Origin: Candidatus Bathyarchaeota archaeon
GTDB lineage: Archaea > Thermoproteota > Bathyarchaeia > JAPDIZ01
Assembly (NCBI GenBank): GCA_029259355.1
Contig: JAPDIZ010000002.1
Coordinates: 186,001 to 250,000, forward strand
Reading direction: 5' to 3'
DNA: 64,000 nucleotides
In this document: piece by piece, positions 10,849 through 49,999 of the stretch
How positions within the stretch are numbered: the stretch's first letter is position 1
How the letters are laid out: each line of letters begins with the position of its first letter
Position numbers and translations under genes: made by a program
Notes under the pieces: generated by a model
What the model was told of the DNA's origin: nothing
The model's input: only the letters and a program-made list of their open reading frames with translations
The model's database searches: none

Positions 10849-10861
10849 GGTATAAGCCATG

Positions 10862-10872
10862 CCGTATAAAAA
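10862..10872 (-). promoter_or_regulatory. TATA box of the homocitrate-synthase-like gene
   Basis: On the minus strand this reads GTTTTTATACG, a strong TATA element. It ends 14 nt before the ATG at 10848, so the transcript would begin at or very near that codon (leaderless). This argues against the upstream in-frame starts at 10893 and 10860. Confidence 0.5.
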
Positions 10873-10918
10873 CCTTATTTCAAAAATGTTCAAAATCCTT
10901 GATATAGTTAAAGAACAA

Positions 10919-11569: not shown

Positions 11570-11572
11570 CTG

Positions 11573-12256
11573 CTACGGATACTTGTACACCCTATCTCTC
11601 TCTATGACCTTGGTCTTGATCTTGGGAGCTTCTCTAGACAGAATCTCCACAAACTCCCTTAAGCGAGTTCCGTGGTAGGGTATGGCTAGCCCAGGCTCGA
11701 CGAGCTTAGCTATCTCCGCACCAGACTGTGGAGAAGCTCCAGGAGCTATTCCGACGGTGCAGAAGGCGATGTCTGGCCTGTAGGTTTGCCCAATTCTTCT
11801 CATCTCCGCAAAGGGAGCGCTGTCGCTTGTGTGGTAGACGACCACCCCATCCTCCGTCGATACGACGTAGGTCACTGGCGTTACTGCGGGGTGTACGCTG
11901 GGCTCAACGTTGACCACGATCTCGTTTACCTCGATTTTGTCGCCAACCTTGGCTTCGATGAGGTCTAAGGACGGTATCATCCCCTTAAGCCTAGCGTAGG
12001 ACGTGGGGTCGGCCACTACCTTGCACTTGTTGGCTGCGTATATGTCCCCAACGAGCGATTCATCCAAGTGATCGAAGTGCTCGTGTGTTATGAACACAAC
12101 ATCGATCGGAGGAAGCTCCTCAACCCTAACCTCCACCGGGTCAAATATGAGCGTCTTTTTAGAGGTTTTTAACAACACACCAGCGTATCCATTGAACCAT
12201 ACGTAGCCAAGCTCGCCCCTACTAACAGACATTTTAGCAACGTCTTTGACAGGCAT
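11573..12256 (-). CDS. UPF0173-type metallo-beta-lactamase-fold hydrolase
   Basis: A 227-residue metal-dependent hydrolase of the UlaG-like branch. The metal motif HEHFDH lies at 58-63, preceded by TLIFDP and followed by a VHP motif and AIPYHGTR near the end. Substrate unknown; the family is widespread in archaea. The ATG at 12256 has GGGG upstream; a second in-frame ATG lies eight codons later. It is the first gene of a minus-strand run with pyrE and diverges from the LarA-like gene. Confidence 0.88.
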   Translation of the reverse strand: MPVKDVAKMSVSRGELGYVWFNGYAGVLLKTSKKTLIFDPVEVRVEELPPIDVVFITHEHFDHLDESLVGDIYAANKCKVVADPTSYARLKGMIPSLDLIEAKVGDKIEVNEIVVNVEPSVHPAVTPVTYVVSTEDGVVVYHTSDSAPFAEMRRIGQTYRPDIAFCTVGIAPGASPQSGAEIAKLVEPGLAIPYHGTRLREFVEILSREAPKIKTKVIERDRVYKYP

Positions 12257-35333: not shown

Positions 35334-36062
35334 TTGACAAGTATCCGAATGCCCAAAGTTTTGGTGGGTAGCTCGCCATTCTTAGCTGCTGGACAATTTG
35401 GGCATAGAAGCCTAGAGTATCTGAGGAGGTTTGTTGAGAGACCAGAAGCAGTGGCGGAAGTCGTTGAAGAAGCGCTTAGAGTAGGCGTAAGAGGGGTTCA
35501 GCCAGTCGCTTACGAGTACATCCTCGAAGGGTTTAAGCTAGCTATGGAGAGGACTGGCGTAGAGGCTTGCGTCGTTGGCTCGACTACGCCTGATGACGTG
35601 CTTGGCTCAATAGAAGACCTCGCCCGCTATGGAGCTGACGCTATCCTACTGCATGGAGAAGTTGCTGACTCCCTCCCCCCACTTCGGTTGGAGGAGTTAT
35701 TTAGGAGGATCGAGAGGCTTGGAGCTATTCCCGGCATTGCCACCCACAGACCAGTCTCTACTCTGAGGAGGCTAATCTCCCACAGAGTAAAGCTTCCCGT
35801 GGCAATGGTCCCGGTAAACGCGTTGGGAGCTTTTATGAGGGATAAAGAAGCTCTCCTCCAAATCCTGTCGAAGAGGGAATTTTTGGCTATTGCCAAGAAG
35901 CCACTCGCGGCTGGGCGCCTCGAGCCCGAAAAAGCTCTTCGATACCTCTTCGAAGAAGTGAAGATAGATTGTGTGGCGATTGGGGTTGCGTCGGTGGAGG
36001 AGGCGAGGGAGACGTTCTCCAAAGCACTTGAGATTGCTCAAAGAGCGCCTAGCAGTCTATAA
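35334..36062 (+). CDS. Hypothetical protein, probable TIM barrel
   Basis: Unrecognised protein of 242 aa. Alternating strands and helices (VLVGSSPFLAAGQFG, ACVVGSTTPDDVLGSIEDLARYGADAILLHG, IPGIATHRP, VAMVPVN, LAIAKKPLAAGRL, CVAIGVASVEEARETF) suggest a TIM-barrel enzyme; the KKPLAAGRL and final IGVAS strands resemble phosphate-binding ends of aldolase-like barrels. The frame is open upstream into the reductase gene on the other strand, but that part is antisense. TTG at 35334 has GGTGAT just upstream; ATG at 35349 lacks a ribosome site. Confidence 0.7.
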   Translation: MTSIRMPKVLVGSSPFLAAGQFGHRSLEYLRRFVERPEAVAEVVEEALRVGVRGVQPVAYEYILEGFKLAMERTGVEACVVGSTTPDDVLGSIEDLARYGADAILLHGEVADSLPPLRLEELFRRIERLGAIPGIATHRPVSTLRRLISHRVKLPVAMVPVNALGAFMRDKEALLQILSKREFLAIAKKPLAAGRLEPEKALRYLFEEVKIDCVAIGVASVEEARETFSKALEIAQRAPSSL

Positions 36063-36669
36063 GCGATAGCGCAGCCATGTAGGCTCCATACTCGGAGAGC
36101 TCTCTGCTATCTGCGCCACAGACAATCACCACATCCCCCTCACCAAGCTCAAACTTGGACAAAAGCTCCTCAGCACCCTCAGGCCAAACCTCACTAAGCT
36201 CTGGGCCGTTTGGAGGAAGTATTAGCCTTCCCCCACTCTGAACGAGGACGAGCGCACCTCTTGCGCCAGCTCGCACAGCCTCATCTCTCTGCTCCATACC
36301 CGCTCTAACCTTCTTCGACGCTTCCCTAACCCTGATGGCGTACGCAAAGCCCCCGACCTGGGGTATTTCGGCTTCTATGGGAGCTCCTTGAGCGACGCGT
36401 TCCCTAACCCCTTCCAAAAGCTTCCTACCCTTTTCGGTTAGCCAACAACCCCTTCTGTCGGCTTCGACGAGGCCTGCGTTTTTCATTCGCGTGAGCAGTG
36501 TTCTGACGGAGCCCTCGCCAATGCCCAACTTTCTAGAAAGAGCTATTCTCCCAACTCTTTCCTCGCCAATTAGTTCGAGAGCCTTAACCGCGTGGTATAT
36601 TGTGAACTGGGGAAGGGGGCCAGCTTTCTCTTCAAGCGCTTCCTCAAGCTCTCTAAGAGACATGCTCAA
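36049..36669 (-). CDS. DUF4443-type winged-helix regulator
   Basis: A 206-residue protein with an N-terminal winged helix: IALSRKLGIGEGSVRTLLTRMKNAGLVEADRRGCWLTEKGRKLL (about 42-85). The C-terminal half is a separate ligand-binding-like domain with GALVLVQSGGRLILPPNG and VVIVCGADSRELSEYGAYMAAL, matching archaeal DUF4443 proteins. Ligand and targets are unknown; position beside btuD leaves open a corrinoid or metal sensor role. It overlaps the convergent TIM-barrel gene by 14 bp. TTG start. Confidence 0.75.
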   Translation of the reverse strand: MSMSLRELEEALEEKAGPLPQFTIYHAVKALELIGEERVGRIALSRKLGIGEGSVRTLLTRMKNAGLVEADRRGCWLTEKGRKLLEGVRERVAQGAPIEAEIPQVGGFAYAIRVREASKKVRAGMEQRDEAVRAGARGALVLVQSGGRLILPPNGPELSEVWPEGAEELLSKFELGEGDVVIVCGADSRELSEYGAYMAALSLIDC

Positions 36670-36728: not shown

Positions 36729-37964
36729 TCAGAGGCTCTCCAACTCATCAACCGATGAGACGGTTCTCGCGCCAAGAGACTTTAGCTTACGCAGGAGTTC
36801 GGTAGCTCTGCCCCCGGTAAAGTCCCATCTCTCACCCCAGCGATTTCCCAAGATCACAACAGGCTTTCCACGCTCAGCAGTCTCCACCAAAGCTTGTAGG
36901 TTCTTCAGGTTGCCTTGTCCAAATGGCGTGGGGACCAAGACTAAGATGTCTGCAGACGCCATAGCTTCGAGGTTTCGCTTCACCGCCTCCTCAGATATTG
37001 GGGAAAATGGGGCTTCGCTCACAACCTCTATGCCAAGGTCTTGGCAAACCTGGTAGTCGGTGTCCAAGACGTTTAGCACACCAGCGGATACGTCGTAGCC
37101 CCTCTCGACAAGCTCGTGGAGAACAGGCTCCCCCGACCCTCCTCCGCACACAACGTGCACTCGCTTCCCCACCTTCCTAAAGCGCTTGACTGGCTTAAGC
37201 GGGATTACGTAGAGAGCGTTGGTGGTGGGATGCCTCCTCACCGCAACATCCACTCCAAAAACTCGTCGTATGTTCTCCACTGTCAGAACCTCCCCTGAAC
37301 TCCCCGCGGCCACCACTCGACCGTCTTTGAGCATGACGACTTTGTCGCAGAAGCGGCTGACGAGGTTTAGGTCGTGGGACACAGCGAGAGCTGCGATCCC
37401 GCCATCTACGAGCTTTCGCAGAAGCTGCATGGTCTCGAGCTGATAGGCTATGTCGAGATTTGCTACGGGCTCGTCTAGAAGCAAAACCTTCGGCTCTTGA
37501 GCAAGGGCTCTAGCTATGAAAACCCTCTGCCTCTCTCCCCCGCTTAGCTCGGTTATCCTCCTGTTGGCGAGGTGGAGGGTGTTGGTAGCTTCCAGCGCTT
37601 TCCTAACTACTTCATAGTCTCTCTGAGACTCAAGCGAAAGCCTCCCAAGGTGTGGGTTCCTCCCCATCATCACCACATCAAAGACCGTGAAGCCAAAGTA
37701 CGTCGTAGGCTCTTGCGGAACAACGCCGACTTTCTTCGCGACTTCTCGAGGAGACATCTCAGCTACTTCTCGCTCACCGATGTACACCGCCCCCACCTTT
37801 GGCTTAAGAACCCCAGCCACCGTCTTGAGCAGGGTGGTTTTCCCAGCCCCGTTGGGCCCAACCACGCCTACGAGCTCGCCTTCATCAACCTCTAGCTCAA
37901 CGTCTCTGAGCGCCTCGATGGATTGGTAAGCGAAGGTTACACCGACTACCCTCAGGTAAACCAA
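36729..37964 (-). CDS. btuD: Cobalamin ABC transporter ATPase with C-terminal extension
   Basis: ATPase of the corrinoid importer, 411 aa. Residues 1-250 are a FecE/BtuD-type ABC domain: Walker A GPNGAGKTTLLK (about 36-47), Q-loop VPQEPTTYFG, signature ELSGGERQRVFIARALAQEP, Walker B VLLLDEPVANLD and H-loop VSHDLN. An additional domain of about 140 residues follows (HVVCGGGSGEPVLHELVERG, ADILVLVPTPFGQGNLKNLQ, PVVILGNRW) with a Rossmann-like look; long BtuD proteins of this kind are known in some archaea. It starts 15 bp after the btuC stop in a btuF-btuF-btuC-btuD operon. Confidence 0.9.
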   Translation of the reverse strand: MVYLRVVGVTFAYQSIEALRDVELEVDEGELVGVVGPNGAGKTTLLKTVAGVLKPKVGAVYIGEREVAEMSPREVAKKVGVVPQEPTTYFGFTVFDVVMMGRNPHLGRLSLESQRDYEVVRKALEATNTLHLANRRITELSGGERQRVFIARALAQEPKVLLLDEPVANLDIAYQLETMQLLRKLVDGGIAALAVSHDLNLVSRFCDKVVMLKDGRVVAAGSSGEVLTVENIRRVFGVDVAVRRHPTTNALYVIPLKPVKRFRKVGKRVHVVCGGGSGEPVLHELVERGYDVSAGVLNVLDTDYQVCQDLGIEVVSEAPFSPISEEAVKRNLEAMASADILVLVPTPFGQGNLKNLQALVETAERGKPVVILGNRWGERWDFTGGRATELLRKLKSLGARTVSSVDELESL

Positions 37965-37979
37965 TTCCCCAACACCTGC

Positions 37980-39053
37980 TTAGAGCGCATACTCACCCTT
38001 TTTGCGCTTAAGGAGGTAGATGAAGAAAGGGGCTCCAGCGAGAGCCGTTATCAAGCCGACGGGAAGCTCCCCGGGCGCGTATGCGACTCGAGCTACAGCA
38101 TCACACGACATCACCAACGAAGCCCCCACCAAAGCGGAAGCGGGGACGAGCACCCTGTGGTCTGGGCCAACCGCTAACCTCGTCAAGTGTGGGACGATGA
38201 GCCCCACGAAGCCTATCAAGCCACTCACCGATACCGCAGCAGCGGTCATCAGCGAAGCCGCAGCCACCAACACTCGCCTAACGTGCTCAACCTCTACGCC
38301 TAGGTAGGAAGCGGATTCCTCCCCAAACAACATGATGTTCAGGTCTCTTGCGTAGAGCATGGACACAAGCAAACCAGCTAAGAACAGGGGAGCAGTTGCG
38401 TACACGTCGCTCCAGCTAGCAGCCCAAAGCCCTCCCATTAGCCAAAACACTATAGCGTGTAGCCTCTCCCCAGCAACCACCTCCAGAAACATGATGAGAG
38501 ACGAGAGGAATATGCTGACGGCTATTCCCGAGAGTAGCAGCGTGGTTGGCGGAGCCGTGGAGCCAACTCTCGCGATGTTGTAGACCACGTAGACCGTTGC
38601 GAGCGCAAACGCGAACGCAATCACAGGCGTTGCGCTTACCCCGGGAGCAAGAGATAGCCCAAGCAGAATCGAGACGGCAGCGCCCAAGCCAGCGCCAGCC
38701 GACACGCCGATGACGTATGGATCAGCCATTGGGTTTCTGAAGATTCCCTGGAAAAGAGCTCCCGCAGCAGCTAGCGAAGCTCCTACGAACCAGCCCAAAA
38801 CCACCCTTGGAAGCCTATACTCCACCACTATGACCTCCTCTACGCCAGATACCTCGATGCTCTTAACGAGCTCGCTTATGATCGGCGTCCTTCTCGCCAC
38901 AGCTATGGCTACGCTTTCGAAGGAGATGCTGGTGCTCCCCACGCCCAGCGAGACCACAGCCACCACCACGGAGGCAGAGAATAGAGCGAAGAGAGTGGCT
39001 AGCCACCTCGCATACCTCGCTCGATATTCGTCGATTGCTTGAGGCCTATTCAT
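37980..39053 (-). CDS. btuC: Cobalamin/iron-siderophore ABC permease
   Basis: FecCD-family inner membrane permease, 357 aa, with about ten hydrophobic helices. Signatures: RLPRVVLGWFVGASLAAAGALFQGIFRNPMADPYVIGVSAGAGLGA and the GLIGFVGLIVPHLTRLAVGPDHRVLVP loop that contacts the ATPase, then GELPVGLITALAGAPFFIYLL. Substrate corrinoid rather than iron is inferred from the cobalamin genes next to it. ATG start; overlaps the signal-less binding-protein gene by 4 nt. Confidence 0.93.
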   Translation of the reverse strand: MNRPQAIDEYRARYARWLATLFALFSASVVVAVVSLGVGSTSISFESVAIAVARRTPIISELVKSIEVSGVEEVIVVEYRLPRVVLGWFVGASLAAAGALFQGIFRNPMADPYVIGVSAGAGLGAAVSILLGLSLAPGVSATPVIAFAFALATVYVVYNIARVGSTAPPTTLLLSGIAVSIFLSSLIMFLEVVAGERLHAIVFWLMGGLWAASWSDVYATAPLFLAGLLVSMLYARDLNIMLFGEESASYLGVEVEHVRRVLVAAASLMTAAAVSVSGLIGFVGLIVPHLTRLAVGPDHRVLVPASALVGASLVMSCDAVARVAYAPGELPVGLITALAGAPFFIYLLKRKKGEYAL

Positions 39054-39880
39054 AGCCCTAGCTCCTCTAGCTCCCTGCTGAGCCGCTTGACTACGTTGAT
39101 GAAGGATGGGCCAGAGTGGGAGAGAGGGAGCTCCTGCTCCAACCTGACCAAAACCCTGTTGGCTCTAACCGCGGAGATGTTCGCCCAACCGCGCTCGCGA
39201 AACAGCTTCTCAGGAGGTGCTTGATCCACATCCCTTTTGGTTTCGTATACCAGCACCACGGCGTCAGGTGATTTCTCAACAACTTCTTCGAAGCTTGGGG
39301 TGAAGTAGGCCTCTAGCTTTTGCGCAAAGATGTTTTGGTAACCAGCTAGCCTGAGGTAGTCTGTTATGAAGGAGAGGGCTCCAGCCGTTATCGAGTACTT
39401 TCCAGGCCAAATCTCTACGTACACGCTTCCTCTCGGAGGCTCGATCCCCATCTGCGACATCTCACGAGAGATTTGAGCAGCTAGCTTTCTCGCCCTATCC
39501 CCTAGCCCAAGCAAAGAGCCTATGACCACCAAGTTGTCCAATATGCCGTAGACCGTTTTCGGCGTAGGTATGGGGATTACCGAGAAACCAGCTTTCGCAA
39601 GCTCTTCTGAAACCGAGCGCTGAATGCCAGTGGTAGTGAAGACTAGGTCAGGGTCTGCGGACTTGAGCCGCTCTAGGTTGGCTTGGGTGGGTGAGCCAAC
39701 AACTGGCTTCCTAATCCCTTTGACATACACGGGACACCAGGACGAAATGCCTACGAGCCTGTCCTCAGCACCAAGCAAAACTATAGCGTCGGTTATCGAG
39801 GGGTATAGGCTGACCACCCTCTCAGGCGATTCCGGAACCTCTACGTATCGCCTCAGTATCTCGTGGAAGAACTTTGGCAA
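39050..39880 (-). CDS. BtuF-like binding protein without signal peptide
   Basis: A 276-residue periplasmic-binding-protein fold with the BtuF pattern RVVSLYPSITDAIVLLGAEDRLVGISSWCP and DLVFTTTGIQRSVSEEL. Unlike the neighbouring BtuF, the N-terminus (MPKFFHEILRRYVEVPESPE) is charged and has no hydrophobic signal segment. The start is firm: TTG 7 nt after GGAGG. It may therefore stay in the cytoplasm as a corrinoid carrier or buffer, or be exported in another way. It overlaps btuC by 4 nt. Confidence 0.82.
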   Translation of the reverse strand: MPKFFHEILRRYVEVPESPERVVSLYPSITDAIVLLGAEDRLVGISSWCPVYVKGIRKPVVGSPTQANLERLKSADPDLVFTTTGIQRSVSEELAKAGFSVIPIPTPKTVYGILDNLVVIGSLLGLGDRARKLAAQISREMSQMGIEPPRGSVYVEIWPGKYSITAGALSFITDYLRLAGYQNIFAQKLEAYFTPSFEEVVEKSPDAVVLVYETKRDVDQAPPEKLFRERGWANISAVRANRVLVRLEQELPLSHSGPSFINVVKRLSRELEELGL

Positions 39881-39915
39881 CAGCTTTCCTCCAAGATGCG
39901 GAGTTCGCCTTTTCC

Positions 39916-40863
39916 TTAGCCAGTAATGTGTTTAGGCATTTCGACGCCAAACACCTCTGGGTAGAATATCTTTGCCAGCATCTCCACTCCATCAGCTATC
40001 CTTGGCCCAGGCCTCTCTATCATGCTCGCTGCAGAACCTGTTATGACGTATACCCTTCCGCTTTTCACAGCGTTTACCTCGCTCCACCCGGGCATAGACT
40101 CTATCTTTGCGATCGCGTCTTCGTAGGAAAACTCCATCATCGAGGTGAAGACTATGACATCGGGGTTTTTAGCGACCACAGACTCTGGGCTGACCACGAT
40201 CCACCCCTGCTTTTCGGCAAACACGTTTTCCCCACCCGCCTTAGCGATAGCATCGTTTACAAATGTGTTGGAGCCAGAGGCGTAAATGGGCTCAAGCCAG
40301 CAGATGTACAATACCCTCACCTTGGTCTGCTGAGCAGAAACCTTCTGCTCAACTTGTGAAATCTTCAGCTTCATCGAGAGAATCAGCTCCCCCGCCTCAG
40401 CTTCTTTGCCAGTCGCTTTTCCAACAAGCTCTATGTCATGGTATACGTCGTCGATGGTTTTGGGGTCTAAGACTATGACGGGTACGCCCAGCTCCTCCAA
40501 CCGCTCTATGGTCTCCGGGGGCGTTATCGTGCTAGCCAAAACGAGGTCTGGCTGTAGGCTGATCACCTTCTCAACATCTACATTCGCTGGACCACCTACC
40601 TTGGTGACGCTGAGAGCCTCTGGAGGGTAGTCGCAGTAGGTCGTTACGCCAACTACTTTATCGCCTAAGCCAAGCGCGTATAGGATCTCCGTGCAGCTTG
40701 GGGCAAGCGACACAATTCGCTCAGGCTTTTTCTCTATCGATACAGCTCTGCCTAAGTCGTCCGTTATCTCAGCGTGGATCTGCTGGCTGGTGGTGCTTAA
40801 GACCAAGGAGATGGCGAGGAGGAATATGGCAAAGGCGGCTAGCAGGTAGAGCTTTTTCCTCAA
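39916..40863 (-). CDS. btuF: Corrinoid-binding protein with signal peptide
   Basis: Extracytoplasmic binding protein of 315 aa. An N-terminal hydrophobic segment (KKLYLLAAFAIFLLAISLVL, about 3-22) acts as signal peptide or anchor. The family motifs RIVSLAPSCTEILYALGLGDKVVGVTTYCDYPPEA and LVLASTITPPETIERLEELGVPV are clear, as is RPGPRIADGVEMLAKIFYP near the end. First gene of the uptake operon, divergent from the salvage operon. TTG start behind GGGTGG. Confidence 0.93.
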   Translation of the reverse strand: MRKKLYLLAAFAIFLLAISLVLSTTSQQIHAEITDDLGRAVSIEKKPERIVSLAPSCTEILYALGLGDKVVGVTTYCDYPPEALSVTKVGGPANVDVEKVISLQPDLVLASTITPPETIERLEELGVPVIVLDPKTIDDVYHDIELVGKATGKEAEAGELILSMKLKISQVEQKVSAQQTKVRVLYICWLEPIYASGSNTFVNDAIAKAGGENVFAEKQGWIVVSPESVVAKNPDVIVFTSMMEFSYEDAIAKIESMPGWSEVNAVKSGRVYVITGSAASMIERPGPRIADGVEMLAKIFYPEVFGVEMPKHITG

Positions 40864-40910: not shown

Positions 40911-40928
40911 TGCTTGTTCCCAAAAAGT

Positions 40929-42122
40929 GTGTTGAGGTATCTGAGCACCGGAGAGTGCGCGGAGATTAAGGCGCTTTTGGTGGTAGCAGACGGGGTGAGC
41001 GATAGGCCGATCCAAGAGCTGAGTGGGAAGACCCCCCTAGAAACCGCTCGAAGAAGCGGGTTGGATTGGGTGGCAGAAAACGGCGTATCTGGCTTAATCG
41101 ATCCCGTGGCTCCAGGAGTAGTGGTTGATAGCGATGTCGCAAACATGGCGATGCTGGGGTGCGATCCCTCGAGGTACTATAGAGGGAGGGGTGCGATAGA
41201 AGCAGCTGGCGTGGGACTGGAGGTGAGGGAAGGCGATGTGGCGCTGCGGTGCAACTACGCGCTGGTTTCACGCAGCGGCATCCTCATACACCCAAGGGTT
41301 TCGATAAACGAGGGCTTAGCCAAGGAACTTGAGCTAGTGATAAACGAGGTTGCTGAAGAGTTCGGAGCGGAGTTCAGGCATTCCATGGGCTTTAGGTGCG
41401 TCCTCGTCTTGCGTGAAGCTGGGCCCATACGAAAGATCGAGCTTCCAACAGCGAGGAGCGTAGGGCAAAAGCCTATGGTGCGGGGATCAGAATTAGCTAA
41501 CGTCCTCAACGAGCTGGTTTGGCGCATAAGTCGACGCCTACAAGGCTTGGGGGATGGTGTTCCCAACTTCGTCCTGCCTTGGGCAGCTGGTGAAGCCACG
41601 TCCTTACCCAGCTTTCGAGAAGTCCATGGGCTTAGAGCGGCTTGCGTCGCTGGGGTTGGGCTCATCAAAGGATTATGTAGGCTTATGGGCATGGAGGTCC
41701 TCGAAATCCAAGGCGCAACGGGAGACATCGATACAAACTACCTCGAAAAAGCTAGGGCTGCCGTACGCCTCCTCAACAACTACGACTTCATCTACGTACA
41801 CGTAGAAGCCCCTGATGAGGCTAGCCATAGGAAGAGCCTCGCTCAAAAGCAGTGGGCTATTTTCCAGATAGGGAGGCTTGTCGAGCACGTGCTCTCCCAC
41901 ACAGACCTAGACGACTTAGTCGTAGCCGTCTTAGGTGATCACACCACCTCGACTCGGCTTGGAGAGCACGTAGCAGATCCAGCTCCCATCTCCATATACT
42001 CCTCAGAGGCATTGCGAGATGGAGTGCGGCGCTTTACGGAGAGAGATGCGGCGAGGGGAGGGCTTCGAAGGCTAAGGGGAGTTGACATCCTCCCCTTGAT
42101 TAAGGATCTTATGGGGGCTTAG
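40929..42122 (+). CDS. ApgM-like phosphatase/phosphomutase in cobalamin operon
   Basis: Alkaline-phosphatase-superfamily member related to archaeal cofactor-independent phosphoglycerate mutase; about 397 aa. Conserved metal and nucleophile blocks: VVADGVSDRPIQELSGKTPLETA, DVANMAMLGCDPSRYYRGRGAIEAAG, YVHVEAPDEASHRKS and VVAVLGDHTTSTRLGEH. As the first gene of a cobalamin operon and 4 bp from cobD, it may serve as the alpha-ribazole-5-phosphate (or cobalamin-5-phosphate) phosphatase that is otherwise missing, rather than in glycolysis. Start set by the promoter: GTG 40929, leaderless; TTG 40914 is the longest alternative. Confidence 0.85.
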   Translation: MLRYLSTGECAEIKALLVVADGVSDRPIQELSGKTPLETARRSGLDWVAENGVSGLIDPVAPGVVVDSDVANMAMLGCDPSRYYRGRGAIEAAGVGLEVREGDVALRCNYALVSRSGILIHPRVSINEGLAKELELVINEVAEEFGAEFRHSMGFRCVLVLREAGPIRKIELPTARSVGQKPMVRGSELANVLNELVWRISRRLQGLGDGVPNFVLPWAAGEATSLPSFREVHGLRAACVAGVGLIKGLCRLMGMEVLEIQGATGDIDTNYLEKARAAVRLLNNYDFIYVHVEAPDEASHRKSLAQKQWAIFQIGRLVEHVLSHTDLDDLVVAVLGDHTTSTRLGEHVADPAPISIYSSEALRDGVRRFTERDAARGGLRRLRGVDILPLIKDLMGA

Positions 42123-42126
42123 GTTC

Positions 42127-43224
42127 TTGGGAGTCTTCGACCAGTCGCATGGGGGCAACGTCTGGCTAGCTTCTCGCCAACTCGGAGTCTCTGCTGACTC
42201 GATAATCGACTTCAGCTCCAGCATAAACCCGCTAGCTCCTCCTCAGCGGGTAATAGCAGCTATCGAGAAAGCGCTGAGGTGGGTACACCTCTACCCCGAC
42301 GACGGTTGCTTGGAGCTCGCTCAGCGCATAGCGGAAGAGACTGGCTTGGGCAGGGATTGCGTAGTCGTTGGAAACGGCTCCGTAGAGCTTATCTGGGCAT
42401 CTGCTTCTGCGCTACTGCGACGGGAAAATCGCGTACTCATTCCTCAACCAACTTTTGCGGAGTATGAGAGAGCTTGCGCATCGGCTGGAGCACGTATCGA
42501 AAACCTCTTGATTGATCCGTGGCGATACTCCGAGGAGGTTGTGGAGAAGCTTCTCGAGTCGCTTGATGTGGACGTGGATGCCCTCTACCTCTGCAACCCA
42601 AACAACCCAACAGGTGATTTGCTCAGTCCAAAGAGGATTTTGGAGCTCGCTGAAGAGGCGCAAGCTAAGAAAGCGCTTCTATTTGTGGACGAGGCTTTCT
42701 GCGAGTTCGACGTTGACTACCCCAAGAACTCGGTTGCTCAGCTCGTTGAATCCCTCGAAAACCTCGTGGTGTTTAGAAGCTTCACCAAGTTCTACGGGCT
42801 AGCTGGGCTAAGGGTTGGCTACGCCCTAGCCTCCAAAGAAGTAGCTAAGCGAATAGCTAGCGCAAAACCTCCTTGGTCGGTCAACACCCTTGCTCAAGAA
42901 GCAGCAAAGGAGGCTCTTGGAGATAGGGAGTTTGGGGAGCGATCTAGGCGATTCCTTGAGCGAGAGCGCGAGTGGCTTCTCCAACAGCTCAAACGGTTTG
43001 AGCCACTTAGGCCCAAGCCTTCCGCAGCCAACTTCTTGCTGTTCGAAGTAGGGGGCATGACTTCAACTGAGTTGGCGGAGAAGCTGCTTCTCAGAAGGGT
43101 CTTGGTTAGGGATTGCCAAAGCTTTCGAGGATTGGGCAAGCGCTTCATCAGGGTGTCGGTCAAGCTGAGGGAGCACAACGAAGCGCTTCTGAAGGCGCTG
43201 GAGGAAGCTCTCCATGACGACTAA
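42127..43224 (+). CDS. cobD: L-threonine-O-3-phosphate decarboxylase
   Basis: PLP enzyme making (R)-1-amino-2-propanol phosphate, the linker of the cobalamin nucleotide loop. 365 aa of the HisC-like aminotransferase fold. The opening HGGNVWLASRQL followed by IDFSSSINPLAPP is the CobD hallmark; CNPNNPTGD and the PLP lysine in SFTKFYGLAGLRVGY (about residue 220) follow. TTG start. Overlaps cobQ by 11 nt. It sits with cbiB, which uses its product. Confidence 0.93.
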   Translation: MGVFDQSHGGNVWLASRQLGVSADSIIDFSSSINPLAPPQRVIAAIEKALRWVHLYPDDGCLELAQRIAEETGLGRDCVVVGNGSVELIWASASALLRRENRVLIPQPTFAEYERACASAGARIENLLIDPWRYSEEVVEKLLESLDVDVDALYLCNPNNPTGDLLSPKRILELAEEAQAKKALLFVDEAFCEFDVDYPKNSVAQLVESLENLVVFRSFTKFYGLAGLRVGYALASKEVAKRIASAKPPWSVNTLAQEAAKEALGDREFGERSRRFLEREREWLLQQLKRFEPLRPKPSAANFLLFEVGGMTSTELAEKLLLRRVLVRDCQSFRGLGKRFIRVSVKLREHNEALLKALEEALHDD

Positions 43225-44734
43225 AGCACTCATGATTCAGGGAACAGCCAGCCACGTCGGCAAGTCCCTCATAGTCGCTGCATTGTGCAGGATGCTCGCT
43301 CAGAGAGGGCTTAGGGTGGCGCCGTTTAAGGCGCAGAACATGTCGCTGAACTCCTACGCAACACCCGATGGGCGCGAAATAGCGAGAGCTCAAGCGCTTC
43401 AAGCCCTGGCCGCTGGTGTTGAGCCAGAGGCGGAGATGAACCCCATTCTGCTTAAGCCAAAGGGAGGTGCGTTGTCTCAAGTCGTTTTGCTGGGAAGGCC
43501 CTACGCCGACTTGTCGGCTCGAGAATACTACAGCAGCTTTGCGCCGAAAACTGGGTGGTCGGTGGTTAAGGAGGCGCTTGAGAGGCTCATGAAGAGGTAC
43601 GATGTCGTGATTATCGAGGGCGCTGGCAGCCCAGCTGAGATAAACCTACACAAGTGGGAGATTGCCAACATGAGGGTAGCTGAGTACGCAAAGGCGCCTG
43701 TGGTGCTGGTTGCGGACATCGACCGAGGAGGCGCTTTCGCCAGCATAGTTGGAACCATGAGATTGCTTAAGCCAAGGCATAGGAAGCTTGTCGCTGGATA
43801 CCTCCTCAACAAGTTTCGAGGAGATTTGGAGATTCTGCGCCCAGCGATGGACGCCGTGGAGAGGTATACGGGCAAGCGCTTCTTCGGGGTAATTCCCTAC
43901 GTCGAGGGGTTGTTTCTCCCAGCAGAAGACTCTGTTTCGCTTGAGGAGCCCACATCAGCTCCTGGAGAAGTGGATGTGGCTGTGGTTAGGCTTCCCAAGA
44001 TATCCAACTTCACCGACTTCGACCCACTAGGCTTGGTCGAAGATGTTTCAGTTAGGTTTGTGCGCAGCCCCAGCGAGCTGGGGTGCCCAGACTTGGTTAT
44101 TCTACCCGGAACCAAGAACACTGTCCAAGACCTTCGTTGGCTTTGGGAAAGCGGATTTGCCAAAGAGCTCATCGAAATAGCCCACAGCGGCACCTGCCTC
44201 ATCGGGATCTGCGGAGGCTACCAAATGATTGGCCACAAAGTTGTTGACGAAACAGGAGTTGAGGGAGGGACCCCTTGCTCGCTAGAGGGTTTGGGGCTTT
44301 TGGATGCGGAGACGCGGTTTTCCGAGTACTCAAAGATTACCCGAAGAGTTTGGGCTGAGGTGGTTGCTAACCACCCCATGACGTCTATGGCGCTAGGCGA
44401 GGTGATAAGCGGGTACGAGATCCACATGGGCAAGACCTTCGTTGGCGCTGAAGCCGAGCCTCTCCTAAAGCTCGTTGGGCAGAACAGGCTCGATGGAGCA
44501 GTTAGCAAAGAGCTCAACGTCTTAGGCACATACCTCCACGGGCTATTCGACGACCCTCCGCTCAGGAACTCGGTGCTCAGCTACATCGCTTTTAAGAAGA
44601 AGAGAGCGCTTCGTGCATCAAGCCTTGAAAGCGTGCGGAGTGCTTGGCTTTCGAGCTTAGACCGCTTCTGCAGAGTGTTCGTCGAAAGCGTAGATATCCA
44701 AGAGCTCCTCCGCCTTGTGGGGATAGAGAGTTGA
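43214..44734 (+). CDS. cobQ: Cobyric acid synthase
   Basis: Amidates the corrin side chains (adenosylcobyrinic diamide to cobyric acid). 506 aa with an N-terminal ATPase half (IQGTASHVGKSLIVAALCR, FKAQNMSLNSYATPDGREIARAQA) and a C-terminal class I glutamine amidotransferase half with nucleophile Cys in GICGGYQMIG (about residue 333) and a histidine in LHGLFDDP. In a salvage-only organism it could re-amidate imported or CbiZ-cleaved corrinoids; CbiZ yields cobyric acid, so the two act near the same point. ATG start; overlaps both neighbours. Confidence 0.95.
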   Translation: MTTKALMIQGTASHVGKSLIVAALCRMLAQRGLRVAPFKAQNMSLNSYATPDGREIARAQALQALAAGVEPEAEMNPILLKPKGGALSQVVLLGRPYADLSAREYYSSFAPKTGWSVVKEALERLMKRYDVVIIEGAGSPAEINLHKWEIANMRVAEYAKAPVVLVADIDRGGAFASIVGTMRLLKPRHRKLVAGYLLNKFRGDLEILRPAMDAVERYTGKRFFGVIPYVEGLFLPAEDSVSLEEPTSAPGEVDVAVVRLPKISNFTDFDPLGLVEDVSVRFVRSPSELGCPDLVILPGTKNTVQDLRWLWESGFAKELIEIAHSGTCLIGICGGYQMIGHKVVDETGVEGGTPCSLEGLGLLDAETRFSEYSKITRRVWAEVVANHPMTSMALGEVISGYEIHMGKTFVGAEAEPLLKLVGQNRLDGAVSKELNVLGTYLHGLFDDPPLRNSVLSYIAFKKKRALRASSLESVRSAWLSSLDRFCRVFVESVDIQELLRLVGIES

Positions 44735-45753
44735 TCGAGTTTGAGGAATACCTCTTGTTTGCTGTCCTCCCCATAGCCGCATATGCGCTAGATGCGTTGC
44801 TCGGAGAACCTCCGAGGCTTGTCCATCCTACGGTGGCTATGGGGAAGCTTTGCGAGGTCTTTAAGCGAGTACTTAAGCGCAGGAGAGGGGTCTTGGCTAA
44901 AGCGCTTGGCGCCGCTTTGTGGCTTATGGTAGTTTCGTCTTCTTGCGTAGCTGCCTATGCGCTGATGTGGGCTGCCAAGGAATTAGTTGGGTGGGTAGGG
45001 CTAGTCCTCGCCGCGGTTTACCTGCTGAAGTGTAGCTTTGCAGTTAGGGACATGGAGGAGCACATATTGCCAGTTGCTCACGCTCTTCGAAGCGGAAACC
45101 TCTCCCTAGCTAGGAAGTTGGTGGCTAAGGCGGTTAGACGCCCAGTGGATTCGCTGGATGAGGAGCTTGTTGCTTCAGCAGCCATCGAAACGACTGCCGA
45201 GGGCTTTGTAGACGGCTTCGCCTCTCCGCTGTTCTACTACCCCTTGCTTGGGGTACTGGGCGCGTTAGCCTACAGAGCAGTAAACACTCTAGACTCGGAG
45301 GTTGGGTATAGGAATGAGCTTTACCGCGACGTTGGGTGGTTCTCAGCAAAAGCCGACACCGTAGCGAACTACTTGCCTGCGAGAATCGCTTCGCTGCACC
45401 TAATCATAGCTGGGTGGTTACTGGGCTGCGACTGGAGGAGAGGGCTGAGGGCGCTGCGCGAGTTCAGGAGAGAAACCGAAAGCGTCAACGCGGGATGGCC
45501 TATGTCGGTTATGGCGGGTTTGCTGGGGGTAAGGCTCGAGAAACGCGGCCACTACCAGCTTGGTTGGAGGCTAAGCGCCATAACCCCAGACCATGTGGAA
45601 AAGGCTCTGAAGGTGTTTAGGCTTGCTTCTCTGCTTTGGCTGGCTTCGGTAGCTGCGGCTTCCCTCGCTCTATCACATGTAGCTGGTCAGCAGATCGCCT
45701 TCGGGATTGCCCACGTTTTTCCAAAACTCGTTAATAGCGCAGCAGCTCCGTAG
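44731..45753 (+). CDS. cbiB: Adenosylcobinamide-phosphate synthase
   Basis: Membrane enzyme that attaches aminopropanol phosphate to cobyric acid. 340 aa with several hydrophobic helices. Conserved: YALDALLGEPPRLVHPTVAMG near the N-terminus, RPVDSLDEELVASAAIETTAEGFVDGFASPLFYY, AYRAVNTLDSEVGYRNELYRDVGWFSAK and ESVNAGWPMSVMAGLLGVRLEKRGHYQLG. The TTG at 44731 overlaps the cobQ stop (TTGA) and follows GGGGAT; the longer frame reaching back to 44644 is inside cobQ and not needed. Confidence 0.94.
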   Translation: MIEFEEYLLFAVLPIAAYALDALLGEPPRLVHPTVAMGKLCEVFKRVLKRRRGVLAKALGAALWLMVVSSSCVAAYALMWAAKELVGWVGLVLAAVYLLKCSFAVRDMEEHILPVAHALRSGNLSLARKLVAKAVRRPVDSLDEELVASAAIETTAEGFVDGFASPLFYYPLLGVLGALAYRAVNTLDSEVGYRNELYRDVGWFSAKADTVANYLPARIASLHLIIAGWLLGCDWRRGLRALREFRRETESVNAGWPMSVMAGLLGVRLEKRGHYQLGWRLSAITPDHVEKALKVFRLASLLWLASVAAASLALSHVAGQQIAFGIAHVFPKLVNSAAAP

Positions 45754-45772: not shown

Positions 45773-46189
45773 TTGGCTAAGCGAGTCCTCATCGTTGACA
45801 GTGAGAGGTGTGTCGGCTGTCAGCTCTGCATGTATGCTTGTGCGAGGAGGTGGGGGGAGGGAGGCATCGCGAAGTCGATGATCTACATCAGGTCTCTCGG
45901 AGGCATAGAGAGGGGGTTTGCGGTCATCATATGCAGAGCGTGCGAAGACCCACCCTGTGCAAGGGTTTGCCCGGTAGATGCCATATCCAGGAGAGAAGGA
46001 GGCGGCGTATCTATAGATCCTCACAAGTGCATTGGGTGTGGGCTCTGCATCGAAACCTGTCCCTTTGGGGCCATTATATGGGATGAGGAATCCAGCAAGG
46101 CGAGAGTCTGCAACTACTGTGGGTACTGCGTGCGGTACTGCCCACACGGTGTTCTGAGGTTTGTTGAGGTTGAGGAGGTGGTTACTTGA
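45773..46189 (+). CDS. Four-cluster ferredoxin subunit
   Basis: A 138-residue electron-transfer protein with sixteen Cys arranged for four [4Fe-4S] clusters: CVGCQLCMYAC, CRACEDPPCARVCP, CIGCGLCIETCP and CNYCGYCVRYCP, as in HycB/DmsB-type subunits. TTG start, GGAGG 8 nt upstream. It ends inside the start of the aldehyde oxidoreductase gene (4 nt overlap), so it is very likely that enzyme's electron partner. Its place between cbiB and cbiZ is unusual. Confidence 0.9.
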   Translation: MAKRVLIVDSERCVGCQLCMYACARRWGEGGIAKSMIYIRSLGGIERGFAVIICRACEDPPCARVCPVDAISRREGGGVSIDPHKCIGCGLCIETCPFGAIIWDEESSKARVCNYCGYCVRYCPHGVLRFVEVEEVVT

Positions 46190-47940
46190 ACCCTGGAGAC
46201 CCTTTGCCGAGGGTGCTCTATATAGACTTGGAGAAGAAGAGGAGTTGGGTTGAGGAGAGGAAGGACCTTTTCGAAAAATACCTCGGTGGAGCGGGAGTTG
46301 CTATACATCTTCTTGAGGAGGAGTGCCCGAAGGGTGTAGACCCCCTCGATCCTCAAAACCCCATAGTATTCGCAGTAGGCCCACTCGTGGGCTTGTTTCC
46401 TTATGCATCCAAGACCGTCGCTATGTTCAAGTCTCCGCTTACGGGGAACTTAGGAGAGAGTCACGCAGGCGGTAGAAGCGCTACGAGCATACGCTTAGCT
46501 GGCTACGGAGCCATCGTGATAAGGGGAGGAAGCGAGCGCCCAGTCTACGTAGCCATCCACGGTGACAAGGTGTTTTTCAGAGATGCTTCCGCTTTGTGGG
46601 GCATGAGGAGCGCCTACGCAGTCGGTAGGGTGATAAGGGAGAGGGAGCCGGGAGCAGGCGTAAGGGCCATCATTAGGATTGGTAGAGCTGGGGAGAAGCT
46701 GGTTAGGTACGCTTGCGCGATAACCGAGACCTATAGGCACTTCGGAAGACTTGGCCTCGGAGCCGTGTTCGGGTGCAAGAAGCTGAAGGCGATCGTGGTT
46801 TCCGGGAAGAGGTCTTTGCCCGTCAGCAACCCAAAGAAATACAGAGAGGTGTATGACGAGATCTTCGAGCTAGGGGTTAGGTCTGAGCTCATGAAGAAGT
46901 ACCACGACCTAGGCACAGCAGCAAATGTGCTTCCGCTAAACGAAATGAAGGCGCTTCCTACTCGAAACCTGAGCAGTTCGTCGTTCGAGAAGGCCGAAGC
47001 CCTTTCTGGAGAGGAGCTTGCGCGGAACTTCTTGGGTAGGAGGGTGGCGTGCACCCATTGCCCAACGGGCTGCATACACCTCGCTGCGCTTAGAGAGCCC
47101 TACCCCGACGAGCCCTACTTCTACAAAACTGTGATGATTACCTACGACTACGAGCCCATCTACGCCTTAGGCACTATGCTGGGGATGGAGGACGCTAGGG
47201 GCTTTTTGAAGCTGATGGACATAGTCGAGGACATAGGGCTAGACGCTATGAGCACGGGCGTCGTGCTCGCATGGGTAACCGAAGCTCTGCAAAGGGGGTT
47301 GATCACTCTAGAAGATACGGCGGGAATCGAGCTTAGGTGGGGAGACTACGAGTCATACATCAAGGCAGTGGAGGCCATTGTGTCGCAGCCAAACCACTTC
47401 TTCGAGGCATTAGCCAAAGGCGTCGACTATGCCAGCAGCCACTACGGTGGGGAGGAGTTTGCGCTAGCTTTTGGCGGAAACGAAATGCCTGGCTACCACA
47501 CGGGGCCAGCGTGCTACATAGGGTACCTAACGGGTGCTAGGCACAGCCACCTGGACTCAGCTGGCTACAGCTTCGACGAAAAAACCAAGGAGTTTTCGCC
47601 TGAGGAAGCGGGCAGAGCTTTGGCTAGGGAGGAGAGCTGGAGGCAGATTCTCTCAAGCCTCGTCGTATGCTTCTTTGCCCGAGGGGTATACAGGCCAGCG
47701 CTCGTCTCGAAAGCTCTTAACGCAGCTGGCTTCGAGCTATCGGAGGAGGAGCTTCAGAAGCTCGGCGTGGAGATCTTGCGCAAAAAGCATGCGTTTAAGC
47801 GAAGAGAGGGCTACGACCCAGCTAAGCTGAGAATTCCCAAGAGGATCACCGAGGTGGAGGCTCCCCACGGCGTGATCACCGAGGAGTTTGTGAGGAAGGG
47901 GGTTGAGGCCTACTTCGAGGAGCTTGGACTCGATGTGTAG
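46186..47940 (+). CDS. Aldehyde:ferredoxin oxidoreductase family protein
   Basis: Tungsten/molybdenum bis-pterin enzyme of the AOR family, 584 aa, oxidising aldehydes (or reducing acids) with ferredoxin. N-terminal pterin-binding domain: EKYLGGAGVAIHLLEEE, ASKTVAMFKSPLTGNLGESHAGG. The cluster motif CTHCPTGC (about 289-296) and the later single Cys in SLVVCFFARG are present. Substrate unknown. The gene overlaps the four-cluster ferredoxin gene and precedes cbiZ with an 8-nt overlap, inside an otherwise purely corrinoid operon. MoaA at 22.6-23.5 kb would supply pterin. Confidence 0.92.
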   Translation: MNPGDPLPRVLYIDLEKKRSWVEERKDLFEKYLGGAGVAIHLLEEECPKGVDPLDPQNPIVFAVGPLVGLFPYASKTVAMFKSPLTGNLGESHAGGRSATSIRLAGYGAIVIRGGSERPVYVAIHGDKVFFRDASALWGMRSAYAVGRVIREREPGAGVRAIIRIGRAGEKLVRYACAITETYRHFGRLGLGAVFGCKKLKAIVVSGKRSLPVSNPKKYREVYDEIFELGVRSELMKKYHDLGTAANVLPLNEMKALPTRNLSSSSFEKAEALSGEELARNFLGRRVACTHCPTGCIHLAALREPYPDEPYFYKTVMITYDYEPIYALGTMLGMEDARGFLKLMDIVEDIGLDAMSTGVVLAWVTEALQRGLITLEDTAGIELRWGDYESYIKAVEAIVSQPNHFFEALAKGVDYASSHYGGEEFALAFGGNEMPGYHTGPACYIGYLTGARHSHLDSAGYSFDEKTKEFSPEEAGRALAREESWRQILSSLVVCFFARGVYRPALVSKALNAAGFELSEEELQKLGVEILRKKHAFKRREGYDPAKLRIPKRITEVEAPHGVITEEFVRKGVEAYFEELGLDV

Positions 47941-48604
47941 AAACTCTATTCCACACAGAGGGACTTCCATAGAGGGCGTGTGGGTAAGCATACGAGAAGA
48001 GTTTGCCGCTGTGTTTTCGCGTAAGCCGCTGAGAACTCTTAGCTCAGCTGTCTACAACGGTGGGTTGAGGAGAACCACCGCCCTCATCAACTTCTATGTG
48101 GATAAGGAGTTTGACCATCCGAGGCCTTGGGAGTATGTCTCCCAACAGCTGCAAATGTATGGGCTTCCGCAAGATGCGGCGGCTTTCTTAACAGCAGTTT
48201 CTCCGAGAGAAGCTGTAGTTGAGGAAGAGGAGGTTGATGGGATTAGAGCGCTAGCCCTCGTCACCGCTGGAACGTCTAACGTGGCGACAGCTGGAGACGA
48301 TGTAACTTTTGAGAGCTGGGGAACTATAAATGCTCTCGTAGTGGTTGATGCTAGGCTAACGCTGTCAGCGATGGTCAACGCAGTTCAAACAGCTACTGAG
48401 GCGAAGTGCGCTGCTCTTAGGAGTTGTGGGGTTAGGAGCCCCTATTCGAGAGACTACGCAACAGGCACCACCACAGATGCGCTGTGCATTGCGTGCACAC
48501 AGAGGGGGAGGACGGGGAGATACGCTGGAACAGCCACCGCAATTGGCTACTGCATCGCTAAGGTTGTGAGGAGAGCTGTTGAGAGAGCTTTGTGTGGAGG
48601 ATGA
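47933..48604 (+). CDS. cbiZ: Adenosylcobinamide amidohydrolase
   Basis: Removes the aminopropanol side chain from adenosylcobinamide to give adenosylcobyric acid, the archaeal cobinamide-salvage step. About 223 aa. Family features: RTLSSAVYNGGLRRTTALINFYV, FLTAVSPREAVVEEEEVDGIRALALVTAGTSNVATAGDD, and GTTTDALCIACTQRGRTGRYAGTATAIG. The ATG at 47933 overlaps the oxidoreductase stop and follows GGAGC; GTG at 47978 is a plausible later start. The short spacing to cobS supports one operon. Confidence 0.9.
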   Translation: MCRNSIPHRGTSIEGVWVSIREEFAAVFSRKPLRTLSSAVYNGGLRRTTALINFYVDKEFDHPRPWEYVSQQLQMYGLPQDAAAFLTAVSPREAVVEEEEVDGIRALALVTAGTSNVATAGDDVTFESWGTINALVVVDARLTLSAMVNAVQTATEAKCAALRSCGVRSPYSRDYATGTTTDALCIACTQRGRTGRYAGTATAIGYCIAKVVRRAVERALCGG

Positions 48605-48608
48605 GGCT

Positions 48609-49373
48609 TTGGGTGAGTTTTTGAAGGGAGTGAAGAGTGTTGTACACCTCTTCACGGTTTTTCCCATAAGCGCAGACTGGGACGTGGCTGAGGAAGCTGG
48701 AAAACACTGCTACCTACTCCCCCTCTTGGGAGCGCTGCTCGGCGCAACAGCGGCAGCGATCGCTTACCCTATTTCGCTGATCCCATCTCTTCGGTGGTTT
48801 GCCGGCTACCTCGCCATCGGGTTTCTGGTAGTTGCAAGCGGTGCTCTGCACGTAGACGGACTCATGGACTTTGGAGACGGCGTCCTCTGCACAGGTCCTA
48901 GGGAGAAGAGAATTGAAGCCATGAAGGATGAGAGCGTGGGGGCGGGGGGAGCTATACTGGGTTTTGCAGTCTTTGCAGCATCTGCTTCTGCAGTCTCCCA
49001 GATAGCCATGGAGGAGCTGCTGCCAGGTGTTGTGCTTGCTGAGGCTTTAGCTAAACTTTGGATGGGGGTAGGCGCTTTGGTGGGTAGATCAGCGCACCCT
49101 GGCTTTGGCTTAAGCTTCATCGAGGGGGCTAGGAGGGGATGGAGATGGGCGAAGCTGCTGCTATTGCTCATCTTTTCAGCTGCGATAGCTTTTCTCGTCG
49201 GTCTTCAGTGGTTGTTTGAGGTTTGGATCGCCTCTTCTCTAACCTTCCTAGCGGTTTTCCTTCTCGCGCACAAATTGTTCGGCGGGTTAACTGGAGATGT
49301 TTTTGGGGCTATAAACGAGCTCTGTAGGCTAGCTGTACTTTTAGCGGTGGTTGCGCGATGCGGAATTGCTTAA
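48609..49373 (+). CDS. cobS: Cobalamin-5-phosphate synthase
   Basis: Membrane enzyme joining adenosyl-GDP-cobinamide with alpha-ribazole (phosphate). 254 aa and about six hydrophobic helices. The catalytic signature is VASGALHVDGLMDFGDGVL, normally HLDGLADTADGL, followed by KRIEAMKDESVGAGGAILGF. TTG at 48609 lies 8 nt after GGAGG; GTG at 48594 would overlap cbiZ. The 3' end overlaps cobY by 16 nt. Confidence 0.94.
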   Translation: MGEFLKGVKSVVHLFTVFPISADWDVAEEAGKHCYLLPLLGALLGATAAAIAYPISLIPSLRWFAGYLAIGFLVVASGALHVDGLMDFGDGVLCTGPREKRIEAMKDESVGAGGAILGFAVFAASASAVSQIAMEELLPGVVLAEALAKLWMGVGALVGRSAHPGFGLSFIEGARRGWRWAKLLLLLIFSAAIAFLVGLQWLFEVWIASSLTFLAVFLLAHKLFGGLTGDVFGAINELCRLAVLLAVVARCGIA

Positions 49374-49999
49374 CTGCAGTGGTGATGGCGGGGGGTAGGG
49401 GCTCTAGGCTGAGGGGGCTAGTGGAGAAGCCTCTAGTTTGGCTGTGTGGAAAGCCCTTGATAGACTACGTGTTAGACGCTCTAGCCAGCTCATCTCTTGT
49501 GGGCGAAGTATTCGTCGCTGTCTCGAAGCACACCCCCTTAACTAGGGACTACGTGGAGAGGATGAGGGGGCTGCGGGCTGTCGAGACCCCTGCCAAGGGT
49601 TTCGTCCTTGATTACCAATTCGCATTAGAGAGGCTAGGCCTAGATAGCGCGCTCGTAGTCTCGTCCGACCTACCGCTGCTAAGGTCGAAAACCATCGACA
49701 GGCTGTCCGAAGTCTTTCTTAGCCGGGGGGTTGAGCTGGTTTGGGCTGCTGTTAAAGCCAGCGACTTGAGAAAGCTTGGGCTGAGGCCGAGGGAGGTCTT
49801 GGTAGAGGAAAGCGTTGAGCTCGCCCCCATAGGGCTTCTAGCTGTAGATAGCGTGTGTGTCCGAAAAGCCCATCTCTCGCAGAAAGCATACCCCCTTAAG
49901 GAGCCTCTGGAGGGCCTCAACGTAAACGATATGAGGAGTTGGGAGAAGGCGTTTGAGGCGGTGCAGAGAGGTTGGTTGGGAGAAAAACCCTCTCTCTAG
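49358..49999 (+). CDS. cobY: Adenosylcobinamide-phosphate guanylyltransferase
   Basis: Archaeal replacement of CobU: transfers GMP to adenosylcobinamide phosphate. 213 aa with a nucleotidyltransferase core: VVMAGGRGSRLRGLVEKPLVWLCGKPL, VVSSDLPLL (metal Asp) and the late GLLAVDS strand plus NVNDMRSWEKA. No kinase domain, as expected. ATG start inside the cobS 3' end; overlaps the transglutaminase gene by 28 nt. Completes the nucleotide-loop pathway with cobD, cbiB and cobS; cobT is not in the window. Confidence 0.93.
   Translation: MRNCLTAVVMAGGRGSRLRGLVEKPLVWLCGKPLIDYVLDALASSSLVGEVFVAVSKHTPLTRDYVERMRGLRAVETPAKGFVLDYQFALERLGLDSALVVSSDLPLLRSKTIDRLSEVFLSRGVELVWAAVKASDLRKLGLRPREVLVEESVELAPIGLLAVDSVCVRKAHLSQKAYPLKEPLEGLNVNDMRSWEKAFEAVQRGWLGEKPSL

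Follow-up and report, generated by a model that had tools for sequence, protein, structure and literature searches.

CobD requires L-threonine O-3-phosphate; PduX is a GHMP kinase, and in Methanosarcina mazei a long CobD is fused to a kinase. The known makers of L-threonine O-3-phosphate are PduX and BluE (PMC7242693), and in a table on haloarchaea EC 2.7.1.177 is entered among the gaps of the pathway (PMC8305020). Three further papers concern relatives of the phosphoglycerate mutase family ApgM: CbiU of Dehalobacter restrictus (Dehre_1608), a TIGR02535 protein encoded in a corrinoid operon, has been proposed as an L-threonine kinase (PMC4285132); according to GapMind, mutation of BT2402 makes cells dependent on threonine, yet BT2402 did not complement E. 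coli thrB (PMC7311316); and ThrB2 has been proposed (PMC9026213). Apart from the proposal in PMC4285132, no archaeal threonine kinase of ApgM type was found in the literature searched, which lay mostly outside subscription journals and was accessible in part.

The window analysed here is a 64,000-nucleotide stretch of a contig from a Candidatus Bathyarchaeota archaeon, and it contains a cob operon whose first gene (40929..42122, plus strand) encodes an ApgM-family protein that we propose to be a phosphotransferase, namely an L-threonine kinase feeding CobD. The reading frame specifies 397 aa from a GTG start at 40929, or 402 aa from a TTG at 40914, and stops at 42122; cobD starts 4 nt past this stop, with a TTG at 42127. 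The first-pass annotation had described the gene as an ApgM relative standing first in the operon, 4 bp before cobD, and the open reading frame, PF01676/PF10143 and TIGR00306 all agree with that description. Downstream, on the same strand, lie cobD (42127..43224), for an L-threonine-phosphate decarboxylase of 365 aa without a C-terminal extension (TIGR01140, 322 bits, residues 8-358); cobQ/cbiP, for cobyric acid synthase (43214..44734; TIGR00313, 538 bits); cbiB (44644..45753; TIGR00380, 228 bits, with similarity to NF002281 from residue 41 of the mechanical ORF); a 4Fe-4S ferredoxin gene (45779..46189; Fer4 matches); an aldehyde:ferredoxin oxidoreductase gene (46186..47940; PF01314 and PF02730); cbiZ (47903..48604; PF01955, 192 bits, with similarity from residue 40); cobS (48579..49373; TIGR00317, 133 bits); and a probable cobY (49358..49999). 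Profiles over cut-off bear out cobD, cobQ, cbiB, cbiZ and cobS as they had been assigned. The earlier call of cobY is less secure, as NF045495 (85 bits, cut-off 250) and TIGR00454 (98 bits, cut-off 174.7) both score under their cut-offs. The earlier gene list was right in its cob genes but omitted the ferredoxin and the aldehyde:ferredoxin oxidoreductase between cbiB and cbiZ. These two genes (45779-47940) fill the slot that a cobT-like gene (identified by eye) holds in two related loci, L048 and L068; in the window genome cobT is present outside the operon, on contig C1 near 271.9 kb (TIGR00303, 403 bits). The product of cbiZ is without the CobZ half present in three relatives, and aligns to the bifunctional CbiS model NF038002 at profile positions 8-191 of 335 only.

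Divergent from the operon, on the minus strand (36729..40863), are genes for an ABC importer comprising two binding proteins, a permease and an ATPase, which appears to be of corrinoid type (BtuFCD-like) by eye and by position. The one component compared with families, the binding protein encoded at 39916-40863, scored 175 bits with TIGR04281 (cut-off 325) and 123 bits with the BtuF model PRK03379 (cut-off 234), both below; homologues of the permease and ATPase occupy the equivalent place in L048 and L068. Beside the importer genes, a 206-aa protein (36049-36669, minus strand) matches MntR weakly (25 bits, cut-off 153), and proteins of like size stand at the equivalent place in L048, L068 and L213; this protein is a candidate corrinoid-responsive regulator. 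Sigma-70-type promoter patterns numbered 0 sites at the locus, as expected for an archaeal host.

All profile matches of the ApgM-like protein are to ApgM-type families. PF01676 (Metalloenzyme) and PF10143 (PhosphMutase) were both over cut-off, and the broad apgM model TIGR00306 was passed at 345 bits (cut-off 320); the scores with PRK04024, which describes canonical ApgM (343 bits against 489), with PRK04200 (282 against 426) and with TIGR02535, which describes proposed homoserine kinases (269 against 446.3), all lie below cut-off. Profile searches returned no match to TIGR03161 (CobZ) or PF00300. An AF2 model of the protein (pLDDT 94.5) had 2zkt as its best structural match (Z 47.6, 2.7 Å over 365 residues), and among its VIA-align structure matches none was named as a cobalamin phosphatase, which excludes nothing. 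Like CbiU, the protein belongs to the ApgM family, is encoded in a nucleotide-loop-assembly operon and is proposed to catalyse the same reaction; a PduX homologue is absent from the CbiU genome and, as far as GHMP kinases show, from the window genome. CbiU, however, is bacterial and, according to PMC4285132, has a TIGR02535 domain, whereas the window protein is archaeal, falls below the TIGR02535 cut-off and groups apart from that family, on the canonical side. With the L-threonine kinases PduX and BluE it would share reaction and pathway position, but in contrast to PduX it matches ApgM-type profiles only. The alpha-ribazole phosphatases CobZ and CobC also act in nucleotide loop assembly by phosphoryl chemistry, but no profile match is shared with them.

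Relatives were collected by a scan of named genomes, for which the query was an alignment of five homologues, three of them already known to neighbour cobD or to belong to a cob operon; the best 80 loci were taken, and the clade may extend beyond these. Removal of rows identical over the last 330 residues and of rows of 330 residues or fewer reduced 161 proteins to 141, and trees were made from 39 rows, from 94 of the 141 and from 48 of those 94. In the 48-row tree (bootstrap/SH-aLRT), a TIGR02535-type group (100/100) stands without the window protein, a canonical group has support of 100/97, and a third group, which includes the window protein and which we named cob-type from the tree, has support of 94/79, below the highest class. 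The 94-row tree repeats the three groups, with supports of 100, 96 and 85, and the 39-row tree leaves the window placement undecided. In the tree the cob-type group stands on the same side as the canonical one, apart from TIGR02535, and the window row, whose branch of 1.2 is the longest end branch of the 48-row tree, is likely, but not certain, to belong within it. Reference rows were labelled canonical or TIGR02535-type by the presence or absence of Lys at column 293, and on the trees these labels coincided with clades, at one change each. The five other scanned loci that were scored (L061, L070, L081, L108 and L113) encode TIGR02535 proteins over cut-off. A distinct ApgM group, whose proteins measure about 430 aa and share a motif resembling H[LI]KGPDEP[GA]H, was also seen (L049, L242-L246, L261-L263, L267-L269, L272-L279, L281-L298); in many of the CobS-negative class members no other ApgM gene was seen, and in most CobS-positive ones it provides the second copy.

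Residue counts were taken from the 141-row alignment, which holds 15 cob-type, 89 TIGR02535-type and 37 canonical rows. Ser68 (codon 41130..41132, plus strand), which we take from studies of iPGM to be the family nucleophile, is Ser in 138 rows (15/15 cob-type, 86/89 TIGR02535-type, 37/37 canonical), and the other three rows, all TIGR02535-type, have Thr. D21, D296, H300, D337, H338 and H347, the conserved Asp and His residues that on the same grounds presumably bind metal, are invariant over the 141 rows; three of them fall within codons 337-347 (41937..41969, plus strand), and Asp296 and His300 within codons 293-300 (EAPDEASH; 41805..41828, plus strand), where Glu293 stands beside them. Trp218 (codon 41580..41582, plus strand) takes the place of an Arg of canonical ApgM: the column, which had no part in row labelling, is Trp in all 15 cob-type and all 89 TIGR02535-type rows, and Arg in all 37 canonical rows. 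Column 293 is Glu in 13 of 15 cob-type (2 Gly) and 89/89 TIGR02535-type rows and Lys in 37/37 canonical rows, a split that is partly by construction since Lys293 set the labels; the scan patterns also include the 293/297 motif, so that the Glu counts of added rows are biased and those of Trp218 are unaffected. Of seven columns picked out as specific to canonical rows (122, 155, 174, 218, 220, 293 and 335), the window protein differs at six (R122P, H155F, D174T, R218W, K293E and T335L); at column 220 it keeps the canonical Ala, where 10 of the 15 members of its clade have Gly. Glu297 was considered as a further signature residue and dropped, since 6/37 canonical rows have it, as do most of the canonical-type rows inspected afterwards.

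As judged from the sequence, the serine phosphoryl-transfer machinery is retained and columns 218 and 293, a pair chosen by us and not by the authors of TIGR02535, match those of the proposed homoserine kinases; both columns probably touch the substrate, and the shared Trp218 and Glu293 may be ancestral. The canonical archaeal enzymes PH0037 (2zkt) and TA0347 (3idd) have the whole fold, the nucleophile and the metal ligands in common with the window protein, but these solved ApgM chains keep, in the alignments, Arg218 and Lys293, which it has lost. TIGR02535/ThrB2 proteins (BT2402) share with it the fold, the catalytic columns, Trp218 and Glu293, and a proposed transfer of phosphate to a hydroxy-amino acid; they differ in forming another clade, in having some loci with threonine genes (for example L063 and L236, by eye) and in gene neighbourhood.

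Among the loci listed with at least 700 bp downstream, cobD or cbiB follows immediately in 13 of 13 cob-type loci (12 cobD, 1 cbiB), and a cob gene is adjacent in 0/84 TIGR02535-type and 0/35 canonical loci; the 700-bp filter left out 1/14, 5/89 and 2/37 loci of the three types, respectively. When the window is added, together with L058, where the contig breaks off within cobD, all 15 distinct cob-type members among the loci listed stand directly before cobD (14) or cbiB (1). The best eight scan loci and L068 follow this arrangement, with the gene directly before cobD or, in L053, before cbiB; seven of these nine loci are named Bathyarchaeota or Bathycorpusculum and two Nitrososphaerota, and the clade probably belongs to Bathyarchaeia. 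In L048 (genome G019) and L068 (G052), whose ApgM-like proteins are 30-36% identical to that of the window, a divergent importer is followed by apgM-cobD-cbiB-(cobT-like, by eye)-cbiZ/cobZ-cobS, and hits to cobY lie beyond these genes. There is no cobD hit across the 21-kb locus of L053 (Bathyarchaeota SKYB89), where the ApgM-like gene is flanked on one side by genes of tetrapyrrole synthesis, read by eye as hemB, hemL, hemC, cobA and hemD, and on the other by cbiB (9992-12248); in L211 and L226 the slot of this gene is occupied by cobD.

A second CobD was observed at several loci (L196, L208, L212, L218, L221, L222 and L223), encoded after a protein of about 170-230 aa with a hydrophobic WFSMWF stretch, and with apparent glycosyltransferase genes (by eye) beside it on the opposite strand. 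In L216 (7243-8892) and L217 (7077-8738) a frame of about 550 aa looks as if the WFSMWF protein were fused to CobD. The role of this second CobD may be in a pathway of the membrane or envelope and not in B12 synthesis.

Cob-type genes occur in 10 genomes (G000, which is the window's own, G019, G043, G051, G052, G185, G271, G275, G303 and G319), and in all ten the CobD beside the gene lies in an open frame of 374-414 codons. The window genome (1.74 Mb, 9 contigs, 95.3% complete) encodes four GHMP kinases over cut-off, namely mevalonate kinase, homoserine kinase ThrB, shikimate kinase and beta-RFAP synthase, together with a fifth, sub-cut-off hit in a 68-codon frame, and none of its GHMP kinases is a candidate PduX. 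With a short CobD, and with other functions assigned to all four GHMP kinases, threonine phosphorylation has no other candidate among the families searched. In G001 and G007 a second ThrB-like GHMP match was considered as PduX and rejected, as it lies with isoprenoid-pathway genes and is by eye a mevalonate kinase.

Co-occurrence with cobS, which the first-pass annotation had raised for this subfamily, was followed in 54 same-class genomes: 33 CobS-positive, 20 CobS-negative (109 further negatives of the phylum being outside the count) and G052. The CobS-positive members comprise 9 with a cob-type gene, 18 with a TIGR02535-type gene, 0 with both and 6 with neither (G001, G007, G033, G279, G307 and G331); among the 20 CobS-negative genomes, 0 have a cob-type and 2 (G003 and G214) a TIGR02535-type gene. 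Either type is thus present in 27/33 CobS-positive versus 2/20 CobS-negative genomes (Fisher p 3e-7, uncorrected for kinship, with many genomes of one family), and the chance of zero overlap between the two types, were the labels independent, is 1.3e-4, again uncorrected for kinship. In G024, counted as CobS-negative, the cob operon is cut by the contig end and cobD-cobQ-cbiB stand without either type; this genome and the six CobS-positive genomes with neither type must therefore obtain threonine phosphate in some other way. The second ApgM copies in these genomes are of canonical type with Lys293, G052 having two fragments, one without the motif. ThrB is found in 8/10 cob-type versus 4/18 TIGR02535-type genomes, and ThrC in 18/18 of the latter; by this pattern the TIGR02535-type genes resemble homoserine kinases that perhaps act on threonine as well. 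A role of the cob-type gene as a homoserine kinase substitute was rejected, since 8/10 cob-type genomes have ThrB.

We propose from these sequence comparisons that the cob-type clade, separate from TIGR02535, takes the L-threonine kinase slot, and put the probability that the window gene is an L-threonine kinase (EC 2.7.1.177) feeding CobD at roughly 0.6. The first-pass annotation had taken the gene for a phosphatase of alpha-ribazole-5'-phosphate or cobalamin-5'-phosphate that replaces CobC/CobZ. Its report that these two are not recognisable holds for the whole window genome, in which neither TIGR03161 nor PF00300, presumably the Pfam family containing CobC, has a match at E<=1 (the CobC search covered the window genome alone); the operon's CbiZ without a CobZ half, the alkaline phosphatases among the fold matches of the model and the longest end branch of the window row also speak for a phosphatase. 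The clade, however, precedes cobD or cbiB in genomes that have CobZ: a CobZ match is present in 31/33 CobS-positive genomes (the exceptions being the window's own and G331), in G052 and in 0/20 CobS-negative genomes. Every one of these matches is below the curated cut-off of 152.5, at 121-146 bits as a rule and 38 and 42 in G001 and G007; all nine cob-type genomes other than the window's have one (124-146 bits), and the window genome alone is without. L048, L068 and L225 even have CobZ and CbiZ as one fused protein, encoded in the operon of the ApgM-like gene and a few genes after it (CbiS 235-244 bits, cut-off 250). Because the gene is kept before cobD in CobZ-bearing genomes, it is not there to replace CobZ, and because 9/9 other genomes carry CobZ, a missing phosphatase does not explain the operon position of the clade; G331, moreover, is CobS-positive without a CobZ match, yet has no cob-type gene. 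Phosphatase by displacement is rejected for the clade on its co-occurrence with a CobZ match in 9 of its 10 genomes, and such a replacement is quite unlikely for the window gene. It is slightly easier, though still unlikely, to imagine a dual role here, in which the threonine phosphorylation of the clade was joined by a phosphatase activity gained after CobZ loss: neither step has another candidate among the families searched in the window genome, the branch is long, and residues conserved in the clade have been lost (Arg301, for instance, where 14/15 cob-type rows have Asp), but the sequence bears no recognised sign of such a gain, and the phosphatase may sit in the roughly 5% of unassembled sequence or belong to an undescribed family. 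A bolder variant, in which one phosphotransferase moves phosphate from alpha-ribazole phosphate or cobalamin 5'-phosphate, via phosphoserine-68, to L-threonine, and neither an ATP-dependent kinase nor a hydrolytic phosphatase is needed, is the most improbable of the readings considered.

The other two alternatives concern the substrate. The pocket columns point to a substrate resembling an amino acid without telling serine, threonine and homoserine apart, so that the enzyme could phosphorylate another hydroxy-amino acid or alcohol, such as L-serine on the way to an ethanolamine-linked (nor-) cobamide; norcobamides are rare, and the downstream CobD passes the cut-off of the threonine-phosphate decarboxylase model, which makes this decidedly doubtful. 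An ordinary second phosphoglycerate mutase, placed in the operon by chance, would account for the TIGR00306 score and for Ala220, but it would have to be reconciled with a neighbourhood conserved over a diverged clade, with the missed PRK04024 cut-off and with the six changed columns of the seven. The first-pass annotation had suggested looking for another apgM in the window genome, and one is present: contig C2 carries a further PF10143 gene, a canonical ApgM by PRK04024 (567 bits, cut-off 489); the gene before cobD is not the genome's only phosphoglycerate mutase. The earlier assignment of the gene to cobalamin assembly by position is upheld. The glycolytic paralogue was rejected on the canonical copy and the changed columns, and is very improbable.

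For the preferred reading, L-threonine kinase, the following mechanism is suggested, in which substrate, donor and direction of phosphate transfer are inferred. An alkaline-phosphatase-superfamily phosphotransferase would make L-threonine O-3-phosphate and so supply CobD, whose gene begins 4 bp further on, with its substrate. Ser68, held between the two metal sites, would accept phosphate from a small-molecule donor (candidates are PEP, phosphoglycerate and ATP) and pass it to the hydroxyl of L-threonine; the change from Arg218/Lys293 to Trp218/Glu293 would fit the pocket to a hydroxy-amino acid instead of phosphoglycerate. CobD would then decarboxylate the threonine phosphate, and CbiB would join the product to cobyric acid.

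As far as the literature was searched, what is new is a clade outside TIGR02535, probably of Bathyarchaeia, that is tied to cobD and comes with a residue signature and the CobZ test. The Trp218/Glu293 columns would offer a simple way to stop the glycolytic annotation of such genes. If the proposal is true, a known gap in archaeal B12 synthesis would be filled, and a second branch of ApgM, either alongside TIGR02535 or independently, would have exchanged the role of a sugar-phosphate mutase for that of an amino-acid kinase.
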